A program made the position numbers and the translations under genes. Under the pieces are notes generated by a model. That model saw only the letters and a list, made by a program, of their open reading frames with translations, was not told where the DNA came from and did not search any database. Shown here in pieces: positions 2,544-60,322 of a DNA stretch of 64,000 bases. This DNA is from Sipunculus nudus (lineage: Eukaryota; Annelida; Sipuncula; Golfingiida; Sipunculidae). The stretch's first letter is position 1; every line of letters begins with the position of its first letter. The stretch spans positions 50,690,079-50,754,078 of the forward strand of contig CM049309.1 of assembly GCA_026874595.1 (NCBI GenBank), given 5' to 3'.

Positions 2544-2679
2544 CCTGAAATGTCCTGTTCCACATGTTACGTGTGATGGCTTTGCCGTCAGTTGCGTTGC
2601 CTCCCTCTGACAGTGTTTTGTTGAGGGCCAATGCGTACAAAATGACGGCATCGTGAAAAGCGCCCACAAAGCTGTTCAC
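2544..2679 (-). CDS. Natriuretic peptide receptor-like, exon 4
   Basis: A 136-base exon with acceptor TTATTCCGAAACAG and donor CAGG|GTATGT, phase 0 in and phase 1 out. It encodes VNSFVGAFHDAVILYALALN, a Gly-Gly turn, DGKAITRNMWNRTFQG. The FHDA-[VI]-LLY and MWNRTF-[EQ]-G motifs are diagnostic of natriuretic peptide receptors. Three sequons occur: NKT, NAT and NRT. The next exon, carrying the rest of the membrane-proximal domain, is not visible in the remaining 2543 bases and should lie off the left edge. Whether the full protein has a guanylate cyclase domain or a short NPR-C-like tail cannot be told from this window. Confidence 0.93.
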
Positions 2680-10460: not shown

Positions 10461-11018
10461 GGACCAATACGGTAAATCACTCTTGAGAAAAGAGCATTAA
10501 TTTATTTTACGGAAACGGGAAGGTAATTTTCGCCACCTGTCTGGGTTACGAGAAAATTTTCCAAGATGAAAGACATGCCAAATTTAAGACCAATATCTTG
10601 AACCACTCCGGAGATATGAGCAATATTCACCCAAAGCACATGTAGAGATGGACGCCACGCCAAAATGATAGCAGATGGCGCCACCAGTCTTGAGTACAAG
10701 ATTGAGGAGTCCAAGATCTATAGATATGCACGATTTCAGGCCAATAGGGCAAATCGCTCCCCAGAAAAGGGCATTAATTTATTTTACAAGAACAGCAAGG
10801 TTAGTTGCGCCACCTGTCTGGTTTATAAGAAAACTTTCCAAGATTTGATGGACATGCCAAATTTCTGACCAATACCGTGAACCACTCCGGAGATATGAGC
10901 AAATATCACCGAAAGCAAACGTACGGATGGACGCCACACAATTACGATTGCAGATAGCGCCACCAGTCTTGAATACAAGATGGAAGTATCCAAGATCAAT
11001 GGATATGCACAATTTCAG
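10461..11018. repeat. Two-copy tandem repeat, unit about 279 bp
   Basis: Landmarks such as GACATGCCAAATTT (10572 and 10851), ACCACTCCGGAGATATGAGC (10602 and 10881) and CCACCAGTCTTGA (10681 and 10960) recur with a 279-base offset. The copies are clearly diverged. Each unit holds two GCCACC-[TA]-GTCT motifs. No coding frame is conserved. Confidence 0.85.
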
Positions 11019-11021
11019 CCC

Positions 11022-12000
11022 GATCTGTCCATTAGTTTTAGTCTTATAATGCTCACAGTACTGTCAAGTGGCAATGATGGGGTATTAGAGGGGGCGAAAA
11101 CAAGAAAAGGACAGAAGGTAGCGCCACCTGTCTTCCACAGAAGACAAAGCTATCCAACATCTTCGGTCAATTTGATTTTTGGACCAATCCATGCATCCGT
11201 TATTGAGATATTTATGATTTTGTGTGATTTTCACCATATATCGCAATATTCAAGGTCAAGGGCACACTCATAGGAAAGGTCATGCCCACAATTCAAATAT
11301 AATCATCCCATAACCTATGTCTATTTAGAGCATAATATGAAAGAAATCTGTCCATTAGTGTTTGACTTATAATGCTCACAGTACTGTAAAGTGGCAATAA
11401 TGGGGGTATTAAACGGCAGGAAAATAAGAAAAGGATAACAGGTGGAGCCACCAGTTTCCGGTACATGGCAACACTATCAAAGATCTTCGGTCAATTTGAT
11501 TTTTGGACCAATCCATGCATCCGTTATTGAGATATTTATGATTTTGTGTGATTTTCACCATATATCGCAATATTCAAGGTCAAGGGCACACTCATAGGAA
11601 AGGTCATGCCCACAATTCAAATATAATCATCCCATAACCTATGTCTATTTAGAGCATAATATGAAAGAAATCTGTCCATTAGTGTTTGACTTATAATGCT
11701 CACAGTACTGTAAAGTGGCAATAATGGGGGTATTAAACGGCAGGAAAATAAGAAAAGGATAACAGGTGGAGCCACCAGTTTCCGGTACATGGCAACACTA
11801 TCAAAGATCTTCGGTCAAGTTGATTTTTGGATCAATCCATGCAAGATTTCTTGAGATATTTAAGAATTTGTGTGATGTTTCCCAAAAATGGACTTATTCA
11901 AGGTCAAGATCACTCTCCTAGTAAAGGTCATGACCCCATTTTAAAAAGGCTTCGTCCTATCACCCATATCTATGCACATGTCAAGTTTGGTAAAGATCCA
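11022..12000. repeat. Three-unit tandem repeat, unit 324 bp, with a perfect internal duplication
   Basis: Units begin near 11022, 11346 and 11670. The stretch 11161-11484 appears identical, base for base, to 11485-11808. The left part of unit 1 (before 11161) and the right part of unit 3 (after 11808) are diverged. The GCCACC motif of the neighbouring 279-bp repeat recurs, suggesting a common origin. Confidence 0.9.
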
Positions 12001-17206: not shown

Positions 17207-17402
17207 CTCTTCCTCGCCGTAGGTAAAGTTTTTGTGTTCATCTTCCGCTCGGCGTTTGACTTCCTCGGAGAACTTCCTGTATTCGTCACTGTCAGGTTTT
17301 CGTAATGTGACCGTCATGACGGCCTCGTAGGCCTCCTTCGCCTTCCGGTTCCTCTCCGGAGTATCCCCCTCCCGGTACCATGGACGCTCACTTTCATTTT
17401 TA
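17207..17402 (-). CDS. Natriuretic peptide receptor-like, exon 3
   Basis: A 196-base internal exon with acceptor ATATATTTTCAG and donor GAAGAG|GTAGGC. The first base completes a serine codon with exon 2, then 65 codons follow in phase 0. It reads KNESERPWYREGDTPERN, then a charged helix including AKEAYEAVMTVTLRKPDSDE and ends in YGEEE. This matches the family segment of type W-x-R-G-D ... A-x-x-A-[YF] ... TV ... P-[ED]-[FY] ... F that follows FFNI[DE]LF. Two sequons are present, NES and NFT. The exon is clearly GC-richer than the surrounding intron. Confidence 0.92.
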
Positions 17403-32658: not shown

Positions 32659-32770
32659 CTGCTAAACAGGTCGATATTGAAGAAGACGTATTCCCCATTG
32701 ACGAAGTTCAAATCATGGGCCTTCAACATAATCTCTCGAACCGATTCTTTGGATGCGCACAACACAACAA
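32659..32770 (-). CDS. Natriuretic peptide receptor-like, exon 2
   Basis: A 112-base internal exon. It is preceded on the minus strand by the acceptor TTTCATTTCAG and followed by the donor AG|GTGAGT. It completes the split valine left by either first exon and continues VVLCASKESVREIMLKAHD, then EYVFFNIDLFS. This aligns with the segment of NPR-A, -B and -C that carries the conserved cysteine (Cys213 of NPR-A, in the motif C-[AS]-S) and ends in the FFNI[DE]LF motif. The cysteine is residue 259 in the spliced protein. It should pair with C207 of copy B and has no such partner in copy A. Phase 1 in, phase 2 out. Both first exons must use it, since no second copy is visible. Confidence 0.93.

Positions 32771-55833: not shown

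Positions 55834-55923
<90 letters not shown>
55833..55923. repeat. Compound (AT)n-(AG)n microsatellite
   Basis: About 68 bases of AT units with interruptions, then about 11 AG units. It abuts the left edge of the receptor duplication and may mark its breakpoint. Confidence 0.95.
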
Positions 55924-56419
55924 CTCTAATTTACGAATTGTTTCTGAGACAAAATTTGTTCGGATAATTAAGGTTACGGATATGCGAAGTCGGACATTTA
56001 CTACTAACGTATTGGTATGTACGTTGGGAATATCATTATATATATCATATGTAAGGTGTGTTAAAATTACATAACCTAGTATTGCACATGACACGTAAAG
56101 GACAATAACATTTATGTGCTTAACCTAGCCATCATTAATTATAAATCCATCAAACATTTTGATATTACTGTAAATACGTCACATTTATGTTTATATTTGA
56201 GTTTGAAATTTTTGTCCAAGACTCTTCAAGTCAGTATTGCATTAAGCAATTAAGCGCATTGATGTGTCCCGTTTTCAGAGATTACAGAAGGCATTTTATA
56301 CACGTTTTTCATTCAGAAAAATTCTGCCCAGAGAGATAACATTTTTTTTTAAATACATATCTAATGCTACATGTGTACGTCCGAGTGGTAATAAAATAAT
56401 TTAGCCGATTCAAACTTAC

Positions 56420-57182
56420 CTCGTGTGTTTAATGAAGCTTCTTTTAATAAGGGTTCGAACTGTTCATATGAATTTGCATAACCGGTTTCGAAATGTTTGT
56501 ACCATATTTGTTTTCCATCTATCGTCTTAATAAGATGAAACAAGGACTCCATGATAAAATGGCCGTAGTTCCAGCTAGTTTTTCCTCTGGTAGATGCTTC
56601 ATAGATAAGACCGGGGGTATACCACTTAAAATGGTACAGCAGGTCCCTAATACAAATAGCCAATTTGTCATATGTACCACCTATCCTCGTCAACAATTTA
56701 TATATATCTTTGTTGCTAAAGGCTTTGACCAGAGCACCCGCGGTGATCATGGGCAGGTCCCAAAACTGAATAAGTCGCGCGATAGGAGCCACCGCGTAGT
56801 CACAAGCTGGGCCAAATAACACGTTGGCTTCTTTGTTTAAATACATATCAATGCCATATAAAGGTCCAAAAGTGTCTGAACATTGCGAATCTTTGAATGT
56901 AGCTTCTATAGTAAACTGTGGTATTATTTCTCTCAACCTACTGCTGTTTCGTGCTATCTTAATGGCTTGCTTCGTCTGACCTAAACTCCATGGAAACGAG
57001 CGCTCCGCTGGTAAAATCACTCCAAGTTTAATTACGTATTTTCCGTTTTTGATGGGCAATGGTCCAAAATCCTTCTGACACCAGACCATTCCATAACACA
57101 AGAACGTAAGGTATAGTCCGGCTTGCATGATGTTACATATCCGGTCCGACTGCCAGCGCGAAAGACTGTGAACGCACAGCAT
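56420..57182 (-). CDS. Natriuretic peptide receptor-like, alternative first coding exon A
   Basis: A tandem copy of exon B, offset exactly 2124 bases with no indel across the coding part. Same ATG, same phase-1 donor GAG|GTAAGT, and the same junction to the exon at 32770. Against copy B it differs at residues 29 (C/F), 105 (F/Y), 157 (N/D), 180 (D/G), 184 (H/Y), 195 (E/D), 196 (A/G), 198 (T/P), 202 (T/N), 207 (G/C), 220 (T/S), 221 (I/K), 225 (Q/T), 226 (I/V) and 239 (Y/F), copy A given first. Glycine at 207 removes the cysteine expected to form the second conserved ectodomain disulfide. The frame is intact and shows no decay. It is either an alternative first exon for a receptor with altered ligand binding, or the start of a separate partial duplicate. 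Confidence 0.88.
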
Positions 57183-57217
57183 TATGGCCAAACACGGGCT
57201 GTTCTCAACCACTGCAT
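57182..57217 (-). promoter_or_regulatory. Upstream ORF overlapping the exon 1A start
   Basis: An 11-codon frame with its own ATG, MQWLRTARVWP, ends in TAA whose last A is the A of the receptor ATG (TAATG overlap). The layout allows termination-reinitiation, if the transcript begins upstream of 57217. The overlap is seen directly; the function is inferred. Confidence 0.4.
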
Positions 57218-57785
57218 AAACACCTCTAACTCACCACCTAAACGTATAAGATTATCTTTCTCCAGCTTGCATAGGGGTAGAACAAGAAGCGGTAGGCTGG
57301 AATAGACTGTGGGCAGTGGAACCATCGTGGGCTGCCAGTAGTGTGGCAAGCCTGCTTACCTGGCTCCTATACTGCAATGTTTCCAGGGCTAGCGAACGCC
57401 AGCGTCATTATCAGTGCTAGCGACATCCTATGGACGCTGCCGGCTTCTCCCTGTGCGCTCGCCCTTAACCGTGTTCTTTTCAACCACGTACAAATCCCAA
57501 CGATGTAGTCAGCACACTATCTCAAAGTGATCGTTTCTCAGAGACGTCTGATCGCACCAACGCTCATACAACAACTGATCCGTTCGATTTCTCTTCTTGC
57601 CGCACATTTCGATAACTCTTAATGCGCAAGCGCGAGCAGATTCCGGCCAAGTGAAACCAACACGACTTTTGGTCCGAAGGGACCGTCTCCAATAACTCGA
57701 TATCATACTAATGTGGCGCACGGGGATTCCCGCAACAGATTAACACGTATGTGGTGGCATGCTGTCCCACACAACAGCTGTTAAT
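57218..57785 (-). promoter_or_regulatory. Duplicated 5' flank of exon 1A (probable promoter/5' UTR)
   Basis: About 570 bases that closely match the flank of exon 1B and end abruptly at the duplication breakpoint (ACAGCTGTTAAT). At 57623-57634 lies TGCGCAAGCGCG, one mismatch from the NRF1 consensus YGCGCAYGCGCR. An ETS-like CCGGAAT (minus strand) follows at about 57641-57647. No clear TATA box was seen. Promoter status is an inference from position, conservation between copies and these motifs. Confidence 0.35.
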
Positions 57786-57810
57786 TCTTAATTAGCTGTT
57801 TATATATATA

Positions 57811-58124
57811 TAGAACCCCGAATATACGAATGGTTTGGGGGATATAAAATTTGTTCGAATAATTGAGGTTACCGATATGCGAAGTCGGACACTTTTTCAA
57901 GAAGTATACTACTAATACGTTGAAATGTACGTTGGGAATATCATTATCAACGTTCCACAAGTATGGTAATATTGGCATGAACTGCGGTTATCTCATCAGC
58001 TAATTTTTAATCACCGTGAATCCATTTTCCTTTAAAAAGCAGCGAAGCATTTAATAGAAGTAAATTTCCGTTCTTAACTTTCAATTTCGGAAAAAAAGAG
58101 ATACGGAAATTCGAGGTTCTACTG
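57811..58124. mobile_element. MITE with TAGAACC inverted termini (pogo/Tc1-like)
   Basis: The left end reads TAGAACCCCGAATATACGAA. The right end, reverse-complemented, reads TAGAACCTCGAATTTCCGTA and is preceded by TACAG. These near-matching termini enclose about 300 bases with no coding capacity. Unit A of the duplication keeps only about 115 bases of it (from 55925), so the insertion predates the duplication. Assignment to the pogo/Tc1 group rests on the CAGTAGAACC-type end. Confidence 0.55.
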
Positions 58125-58129
58125 TAAAT

Positions 58130-58133
<4 letters not shown>

Positions 58134-58180
<47 letters not shown>
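58134..58180. repeat. (AT)n microsatellite within duplication unit B
   Basis: About 23 units just after the MITE right end. The corresponding point in unit A (about 56036-56046) has only a few AT units. Confidence 0.95.
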
Positions 58181-58182
<2 letters not shown>

Positions 58183-58543
58183 CATATGCAAAGGTATGTT
58201 AAAGTTATATGACCTAGTATTGCACATGACACGTATAGAACAAAATTTATGTGCTTGACCTAATCATTAATTATAAACCAATCAAACATTTAATATTTGT
58301 AAATAAGTCACATTTATGTTTTATATTTGAGTTTGAAATTTGTATTCAAGACCATACAACTCAGTATTCAATTAGGCAAATAAGCGCATTGTTGTCCCCT
58401 TTTTTCAGAGATAACAGAAGGCGGTTTATTCACGTTTTTCAGTCAAAACATTCTGCCCAGTAATAACATTTCTAAAATACATATATAATGCTACATGTGT
58501 ACGTCCAAGTGGTAATAAAATAATTGAGCTGATTCAAACTTAC

Positions 58544-59306
58544 CTCGTGTGTTTAATGAAGCTTCTTTTAATAAGGGTTCGAACTGTTCAAATGAGTTTG
58601 CATAACCGGTTTCGAAGTGTTTGTACCATACTGTTTTTCCATCTTTCGACTTAATAAGATGAAACAAGGACTCCATGATAAAATGGCAGTAGTTCCAGCT
58701 ATTTTTACCTCTTGGAGATCCATCATAGATAAGGCCGGGGGTATACCACTTAAAATAATACAGCAGGCCCCTAATACAAATAGCCAACTTGTCATATGTA
58801 CCACCTATCCTCGTCAACAATTTATATATATCTTTGTCGCTAAAAGCTTTGACCAGAGCACCCGCGGTGATCATGGGCAGGTCCCAAAACTGAATAAGTC
58901 GCGCGATAGGAGCCACCGCGTAGTCACAAGCAGGGCCAAATAACACGTTGGCTTCTTTGTTTAAATACATATCAATGCCGTATAAAGGTCCATAAGTGTC
59001 TGAACATTGCGAATCTTTGAATGTAGCTTCTATAGTAAACTGTGGTATTATTTCTCTCAACCTACTGCTGTTTCGTGCTATCTTAATGGCTTGCTTCGTC
59101 TGACCTAAACTCCATGGAAATGAGCGCTCCGCTGGTAAAATCACTCCGAGTTTAATTACGTATTTTCCGTTTTTGATCGGTAATGGTCCAAAATCCTTCT
59201 GACACCAGACCATTCCATAAAACAGGAACGTAAGGTATAGTCCGGCTTGCATAATGTTACATATCCGGTCCGACTGCCAGCGCGAAAGACTGTGAACGCA
59301 CAGCAT
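58544..59306 (-). CDS. Natriuretic peptide receptor-like, alternative first coding exon B
   Basis: Encodes residues 1-254 plus one base of the next codon: signal peptide and membrane-distal part of the ANF-receptor (periplasmic-binding-like) ligand domain. Family hallmarks are GPACDYAVAPIARL near 124-137 and FWDLPMITAGA near 140-150. C101 and C127 are 26 residues apart, as are Cys60 and Cys86 of human NPR-A. C207 aligns with NPR-A Cys164. NSS at 79-81 is a glycosylation sequon. The ATG at 59306 is the first in frame; a second at 59252 (residue 19) directly precedes the hydrophobic signal segment and may be the true start. The open frame extends upstream only through a GTG. The exon ends at a strong donor, GAG|GTAAGT, phase 1, and splices in phase to the exon at 32770. 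No upstream acceptor is evident, so it is a first coding exon. The ligand is unknown. Confidence 0.9.
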
Positions 59307-59341
59307 TATGGCCAAACACGGGCTGTTCTCAACCACTGCAT
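59306..59341 (-). promoter_or_regulatory. Upstream ORF overlapping the exon 1B start
   Basis: Identical in sequence and position to the upstream ORF of copy A, with the same TAATG stop-start overlap. It survived in both copies, although the 5' flank is not free of substitutions and has a one-base indel nearby. Confidence 0.4.
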
Positions 59342-59907
59342 AAACACCTCTAACTCACCACCTAAACGTACAAGATTATCTTTCTCCAGCGTGCATTGGA
59401 TAAAACAAGAAGTGGTAGTCTGGAACAGACTGTGCGAAGTGGAACCATCGTGGGCTGCCAGTAGTGTGGCGAGCCTGCTTACCTGGCTCCTATACTGCAA
59501 TGTTACCAGGGCTAGCCAACGCCAGCGTCGTTATCAGTACTAGCGACAACCTATGGACACCACCGGCTTATCCCTGTGCGCCGGCCTTTACCCGTGTTCT
59601 TTTCAACCACGTACAAATCCCAACGATGTAGTCAGCACACTATCTCAAAGTGATCGTTACTCAAAGACATCTGATCGCACCTACGCTCATAGAACAACTG
59701 ATTCGCTCGATCTCTCTTCTTGTCGCACATTTCGATAACTCTGAATGCGCAAGCGCGAGCAGATTCCGGCCAAGTGAAACCAACACGACTTTTAGCCTGA
59801 AGGGACCGTCTCCAATAACCCGATATCATACTAATGTGGCGCACAGGGATTCACGCAACAGATTAACACGTATGTGGTGGCATGCTGTCCCACACAACAG
59901 CTGTTAA
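59342..59907 (-). promoter_or_regulatory. Duplicated 5' flank of exon 1B (probable promoter/5' UTR)
   Basis: Counterpart of the flank of exon 1A, with the same NRF1-like site at 59746-59757 and the adjacent ETS-like site. The match to copy A stops at about 59907; DNA beyond it is single-copy, so this may be the ancestral promoter with further elements upstream. Confidence 0.35.
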
Positions 59908-60322
59908 TCGTGTGTTGAGTTAACATAAAAGATCAAAGTCGAACGCTCGGCCCCGCATGATGCCCACACCGTGTTTTAGGCGGGATAGAACACCGTGATC
60001 AATTACCAATTCGATACAGCTTTGTAGACTTTCGACCAACCAGTGGACCCGATCGAGCTAGCATGGCGATAAACAGCCCATATGGCTCGAGGCTATTTGC
60101 CAAAAGTGCTTGTCCATGCACGGAATTTCTTCAGCAGGGCACCAGACAGTGAAAGACCCGCTAAACAAGTGGCGACCATGAAAGGAGCCGATATTTCACT
60201 CAAGCGAGAGAGTGTATTAAACTGGTTAGCAGGCCTTTGGTCGTTCATTTCAACAATGAGATTAGCATACAGATCTCTTCATGTTCCCACTCATCCCCGC
60301 CCTTGTCGCAGCGACAGAGGCC

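Follow-up and report, generated by a model that had tools for sequence, protein, structure and literature searches.

Two first coding exons and the shared exons of a receptor gene

In Sipunculus nudus, a 64,000-nt stretch of contig CM049309.1 (GenBank assembly GCA_026874595.1, positions 50,690,079 to 50,754,078 of the forward strand; hereafter the window) carries, on its minus strand, part of a natriuretic peptide receptor (NPR)-like gene whose first coding exon is present as two tandem copies, here called 1A and 1B. Coordinates without a prefix are window positions; the window corresponds to C4:50690079-50754078, and C3, C4 and similar prefixes denote contigs of this genome, which comprises 1.43 Gb in 153 contigs. 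Based on a self-comparison of the window, we identified a head-to-tail duplication of ~2.1 kb, in which positions 58166-59908 match positions 56030-57785 with 92.4% identity over 1762 aligned columns; the similarity of the two units is far above chance. Exon 1B spans 58544..59306 (ATG1 at 59306, last exon base at 58544, phase-1 donor at 58543), and exon 1A spans 56420..57182 (ATG1 at 57182, last exon base at 56420, phase-1 donor at 56419), both on the minus strand, each with 254 open codons, no stops and no indels. Both match PF01094 (E 1.2e-17 for 1A and 5.7e-18 for 1B) and, in the PDB, NPR1 and NPR3, with an NPR1 score of 78.9 bits for 1A and 85.1 bits for 1B; as judged by eye, each begins with a hydrophobic, signal-peptide-like stretch, which is followed by the N-terminal part of the ANF-receptor domain. 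Translation may start at codon 19 (Met19 at 59252 in 1B and at 57128 in 1A) instead of codon 1, since a partial duplicate on contig C3, described below, has no ATG1 and yet has kept Met19.

Splice sites were scored in bits with approximate matrices, and percentiles refer to the same-strand GT or AG sites of the window. The donor GAG/gtaagt is the same in both first exons (11.7 bits, 99.9th percentile), and the in-silico joins of 1A and of 1B to exon 2 both give an open reading frame (ORF). Two intact tandem first exons of an NPR-like gene, each with its own start codon and phase-1 donor and in frame with exon 2, had been proposed in the initial annotation, and all of this was borne out, down to the exact coordinates.

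Exon 2 (32659..32770, minus strand) was located with tblastn (E 4.6e-4), using an NPR-A sequence as a probe, and by its splice sites. It begins at 32770 (C4:50722848), after ttgtttgtctttcatttcag, with an acceptor of 8.3 bits (98.6th percentile), gives a partial PF01094 match of 17.3 bits, under the cut-off of 25.4, and carries the equivalent of NPR-A Cys213 in the sequence VVVLCAS. Exon 3 (17207..17402, minus strand; frame KNESERPWY), with a weak acceptor of 3.4 bits and a donor of 9.0 bits, and exon 4 (2544..2679, minus strand), with an acceptor of 7.9 bits and a donor of 7.3 bits, were also found by tblastn. Downstream of the window, the same probe located further exons in colinear order, which encode the last part of the ligand domain, then the kinase-homology and cyclase domains, from C4:50659635 down to 50617179, and PF00211 matches of the cyclase exons of this gene lie at C4:50618336 and 50619028; the transmembrane exon was not pinpointed with the probe in this downstream DNA. 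Because the ligand-domain, kinase-homology and cyclase exons are colinear down to C4:50617179, we predict that the gene encodes a receptor guanylyl cyclase.

The initial annotation had also stated that neither first exon has an evident acceptor, which stands only in part: acceptor-like sites do precede 1A and 1B, the best with 6.3 and 6.4 bits (~96th percentile), and they are weaker than the acceptor of exon 2. The skipping of either exon as intron is therefore plausible but not assured. The duplicated unit includes a 5′ flank of each first exon (59307..59908 for 1B and 57183..57785 for 1A, minus strand), in which the copies diverge by 6.6% (40 differences in 605 aligned bases), and the start of the following intron (58166..58543 after 1B and 56030..56419 after 1A, minus strand), in which they diverge by 13.6% (51 differences in 375 aligned bases; p 0.0004 for flank versus intron). 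The lower divergence of the 5′ flank fits a constrained or retained 5′ function without proving it, and base composition could contribute.

Both 5′ flanks keep a strong donor-like site, GCCAG/gtaagcag, at 59482 and 57359 (11.9 bits), which is mutated in the C3 copy and may mark an intron of the 5′ untranslated region. The choice between 1A and 1B could then be one of splicing, from a 5′ leader exon ending in CAG/gtaagc at these positions to an acceptor before either coding exon, and acceptor-like sites of 5-6 bits do lie between the donor-like sites and Met19. These acceptors are, however, weaker than the 8.3 bits of exon 2, the spacing from donor to acceptor is just ~50-210 nt, and the donor GT has become TT in the C3 copy, whose ORF persists, so that we regard splicing from a leader as a doubtful explanation.

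Apart from the tandem layout itself, nothing suggests that the second copy is an assembly artefact made of collapsed or stacked haplotypes. The copies differ by 7.2% over 1744 aligned bases with nine gap runs, reaching the 13.6% given above in the intron part, and the duplication is clean, with a ~2.1-kb unit repeated head to tail within a contig of 97.5 Mb; an artefact is thus very improbable. A dispersed repeat with more than 30 further matches in the genome occupies 57900-58126, in the 3′ flank of 1B, and 55925-55999; in the flank of 1A, only a short tail of the 57900-58126 repeat matches.

Divergence of the two copies and the partial duplicate on C3

The pairwise comparison of 1A and 1B gave 16 changes of each kind, synonymous and nonsynonymous (omega 0.25), which are unevenly distributed: codons 1-175 have 10 synonymous and 3 nonsynonymous changes, and codons 176-254 have 6 and 13, respectively (Fisher p 0.03, with the split chosen post hoc). 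The initial annotation had placed the difference between the two receptors in the membrane-distal part of the ligand domain. This was contradicted by the positions of the amino-acid differences, 3 of which are in codons 1-175 and 12 of the 15 in codons 176-254; 11 of these 12 map to NPR-A residues 139-183, which we take to lie in the other lobe and not in the membrane-distal one. At the docking-derived contact positions of NPR-A listed in the accessible part of PMC9699598, of which 16 of the 17 listed could be mapped, we found 4 differences, compared with 9 at the 168 other positions (one-sided p 0.017). This enrichment was not used, as from codon 176 on the p value is 0.31. A model in which one copy evolves freely while the other is fully fixed gave p 0.055 for the whole exon, 0.003 for codons 1-175, a range chosen post hoc, and, for the first two thirds of the exon (codons 1-170), 0.006. 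That gene conversion alone made codons 1-175 so similar is not supported by the synonymous divergence there, which is 0.094.

The partial duplicate on C3 covers at least C3:64051268-64079963 and includes one exon 1 and exons 2-6. In the ~74 kb that follow its exon 6, no transmembrane, kinase-homology or cyclase exon was found, for which reason we rejected the idea that it is a second full receptor; the copy is possibly a gene for a soluble ectodomain or a decaying fragment. The homology of its 5′ flank is interrupted by ~4.5 kb (64069819 to 64074376), as if by an insertion or a loss at one of the loci.

With the C3 copy as outgroup, we assigned 2 nonsynonymous and 6 synonymous changes to the 1A branch, 14 and 7 to the 1B branch, and 31 and 17 to the C3 branch, with 3 sites left unpolarised. 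Of the 16 nonsynonymous changes assigned to 1A or 1B, 14 thus fall on 1B, and codons 176-254 account for 11 nonsynonymous and 3 synonymous changes of that branch. 1B has evolved faster than 1A in two regions, codons 176-254 (14 versus 4 sites, p 0.031) and the 5′ flank (17 versus 6, p 0.035); codons 1-175 (7 versus 4, p 0.55) and the intron (23 versus 17, p 0.43) showed no such difference. The faster evolution of 1B may reflect either adaptation or relaxation. As to which copy is ancestral, the evidence conflicts: in the protein tree, 1A groups with the C3 copy (96/91) and 1B is nearer to the old state, whereas the intron and the overall site patterns group 1A with 1B. Additionally, at the 13 codons where 1A equals C3 against 1B, distant exons and NPRs match the state of 1B in six and that of 1A in five, and the cysteine discussed below aside, the distant exons are nearly even between the two states. 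Neither pattern was given weight in our verdict.

Six further reading frames upstream of the window

A search of the genome with exon 1B returned ten places, namely 1B and 1A themselves, the first exon of the C3 copy, a weak match at 39.3 Mb of C4 (E 4.8e-4), and six ORFs outside the window, 76-285 kb upstream. These six ORFs, all on the same strand as the gene, are located at C4:50825387-50826092, 50833587-50834295, 50879799-50880498, 50947659-50948355, 50988725-50989412 and 51033765-51034500. Each starts with a Met, after which a hydrophobic stretch is visible by eye, and has 229-245 open codons, with no stops, up to a phase-1 donor, and all six contain the ANF_receptor domain (PF01094, E 1.6e-13 to 1.3e-24), so that the domain is present in all eight first exons of the locus. 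The best PDB match was NPR3 for the three upstream exons compared of the six, and NPR1 or NPR3 for the five first exons compared of the eight. Joined to exon 2, all eight remain in frame without a stop and complete a continuous VVLCAS strand; their alignment has 15 invariant columns, including the equivalents of Cys60 and Cys86, which are present in every one of them. Every one of the eight lies on the same strand, has a start codon and the same donor phase, and is upstream of the single constant set of exons that the searches below revealed, as is characteristic of variable-first-exon clusters.

The upstream exons are only 21-38% identical among themselves and to 1A and 1B, with the exception of one pair at 52%. 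Synonymous sites are saturated or nearly so in all pairs except 1A/1B (pS 0.70-0.87), and in every pair of first exons the proportion of nonsynonymous differences, pN (0.29-0.56), is below that of synonymous differences, pS (e.g., 0.29 versus 0.76). Because the frames are still open under these conditions, we take the old upstream ORFs to have been kept by selection. First exons that are close relatives in the tree also lie next to each other, in agreement with growth by tandem duplication.

The six upstream ORFs could instead begin receptor genes of their own, for example short NPR-C-like genes without a cyclase, in a tandem cluster where only 1A and 1B use exon 2 in common. The spacing of 40-76 kb in five of the six intervals leaves room for private exons, and with first exons as dissimilar as these, the downstream exons could be equally diverged as well as short. 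Set against this, when the whole genome was searched with exons 2-6 (E<=10), 20 matches were returned, none of them in C4:50754079-51084078, although weak homologues did surface near other cyclases: five matches belong to this gene, five to the C3 copy, and ten are weak matches on other contigs. Seven of these ten (E 0.002-5.5), at six places, are within ~105 kb of a PF00211 match and resemble ligand-domain exons that belong to other receptor cyclases, although some may be chance matches; the remaining three, two on C12 near 22.9 Mb and one on C16, are not near cyclase matches. Similarly, the search for the cyclase domain (PF00211; 127 matches, 150 of the 154 candidates having been scored) gave none on the upstream stretch of C4, the five matches on this contig being the two of this gene and three near 50.01 Mb, ~0.6 Mb downstream. 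The latter constitute another cyclase-domain locus on the same strand (C4:50009955-50012360), perhaps a neighbouring paralogue.

Reading the DNA directly also revealed no homologue of exons 2-6 in ~24 kb around the six upstream exons (best chance match E 0.55), of which a continuous 11.65 kb covers the two nearest upstream exons and the 7.5 kb between them, or in the 10 kb just above the window. Exons of their own, from exon 2 to the tail, were thus not found behind any of the upstream first exons, within the limited sensitivity of these searches to such exons. With ~2 matches listed for each gene, around a dozen cyclase matches would still be expected from six cyclase genes, whereas six NPR-C-like genes, which offer no cyclase to detect, could be more easily overlooked. 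Taken together, we consider a cluster of separate genes unlikely.

Use of the first exons and its parallels

Since neither private downstream exons nor upstream cyclase exons were found in these searches, one constant set for all eight first exons is the simplest account, and the locus is probably a variable-first-exon array of the UGT1 or protocadherin type that serves one constant receptor cyclase; eight first exons is a lower bound, and 1A and 1B would be the youngest pair. In such an array, a separate promoter would precede each first exon, the pre-mRNA would begin at the chosen exon, whose donor would be joined to exon 2, and the intervening downstream first exons would be skipped as intron for want of a strong acceptor. 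The products would have in common the C-terminal part of the ligand domain and the transmembrane, kinase-homology and cyclase parts, and would differ in the N-terminal part, the source of much of the hormone site. Alternative first exons with the remaining exons in common, as originally suggested for 1A and 1B, hence continue to be the favoured interpretation, which the six upstream ORFs reinforce, with promoter choice as a possible mechanism; the scope has changed, however, from two exons to a probable array.

Several observations weigh against an array of this kind. The furthest first exon would need to be spliced across ~311 kb. Over ~246 of the ~270 kb from C4:50764079 to the furthest exon, the absence of private exons is based on searches and not on base-by-base reading, and searches miss short diverged exons: the Pfam scan of the window overlooked exon 3, PF00211 listed just two of the cyclase exons of this gene, while the tblastn probe found more, and other cyclase loci yielded two ligand-domain exons at most, with none at many of them, including the one ~0.6 Mb downstream on C4. 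With the C3 outgroup, 1B alone is not clearly constrained. Finally, 1A has Gly at codon 207, the equivalent of Cys164, where 1B has Cys, and the partner of this residue is the Cys213 equivalent in exon 2.

In NPR-B, the 164-213 bond is dispensable. For NPR-A, disulfides 60-86 and 164-213 are described in the accessible text of PMC4049422, and because this text names just the two NPR bonds other than 164-213 as conserved in A- and B-type receptors, it likewise suggests that this bond can be spared in NPR-B. Among the six older exons of the array, three have Cys at this position and three have Gly, Ala or Asn; therefore, a missing cysteine is not the mark of a dead exon.

The last two of these objections also bear on the possibility that only one of the two copies is used and the other is a recent duplicate in decay. 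The decaying copy could be 1B, which looks relaxed in codons 176-254, or conversely 1A, which has no Cys164 equivalent and scores lower against NPR1. Nevertheless, indels are present in the intron part of the duplicated unit but in neither ORF, both of which are intact over their 254 codons; the changes in codons 1-175 depart from the model of one free copy, less clearly so over the whole exon; and half of the old exons likewise have another residue at the cysteine position. The use of only one copy is less likely than not, but a possibility to be reckoned with.

The likely array of variable first exons would, if real, let one gene give several receptors with different ligand-binding parts and a constant signalling half, extending the gene logic of UGT1 and the protocadherins to hormone-receptor cyclases. 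It would also constitute a natural experiment in receptor specificity and offer matched receptors for ligand finding. NPR-type receptors act as dimers. A further proposal, which we regard as speculative and rather unlikely, is a combinatorial sensor, in which at least eight promoters over ~0.3 Mb would be chosen cell by cell, giving many homo- and heterodimers that differ in their half-sites, with a Cys164-Cys213 bridge that is formed or missing depending on the first exon chosen. Protocadherin variable exons encode the whole ectodomain and the membrane span; as predicted here, the end of the ectodomain and the membrane span are constant.

In the accessible text of PMC1885805, UGT1, GCNT2 and the protocadherins are given as established variable-first-exon clusters, with the clustered protocadherins named together with UGT1 as tandem variable-exon clusters. 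In UGT1, GCNT2 and UGT2A of vertebrates, tandem first exons are joined to one constant exon set, as proposed here, and clusters of the UGT1 type grow by birth-and-death duplication, with an N-terminal domain that binds the acceptor substrate (accessible text of PMC1885805 and PMC3325998). UGT1 would thus be close to the array in logic; it differs in encoding conjugating enzymes, whereas the gene described here encodes a predicted transmembrane receptor cyclase known from the genome sequence alone, in which the first exon provides part of a two-lobed domain and the constant exons are many more.

The resemblance to NPR-A, NPR-B and NPR-C lies in the ligand domain, the Cys60 and Cys86 equivalents, and the kinase-homology and cyclase exons. 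Among the matches listed, titles and abstract openings gave no report of tandem alternative first exons in NPR-type receptors, most subscription papers being outside the scope of this search; of the articles on receptor cyclases, the main text of PMC1435932 contains no "exon", "splic" or "tandem" and that of PMC5225109 no "exon", "splice" or "isoform". According to the accessible text of PMC8816384, isoform d of gcy-28 of C. elegans, also a receptor cyclase gene, has its own 5′ promoter. For most NPR-like receptors outside the vertebrates, no ligand is known (accessible text of PMC6878697).

Two minor observations concern other DNA. In intron 3, two adjoining tandem arrays occupy 10464-11945, one with 2 copies of a 279-nt unit and the other with 2.8 copies of a 324-nt unit. 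The PF00211 search also listed, on contigs C61-C90, many small contigs with long intronless cyclase ORFs (493, 804 or 834 aa) of equal scores, which differ from the split exons of the large contigs and may belong to an associated microbe or reflect redundancy among the contigs.

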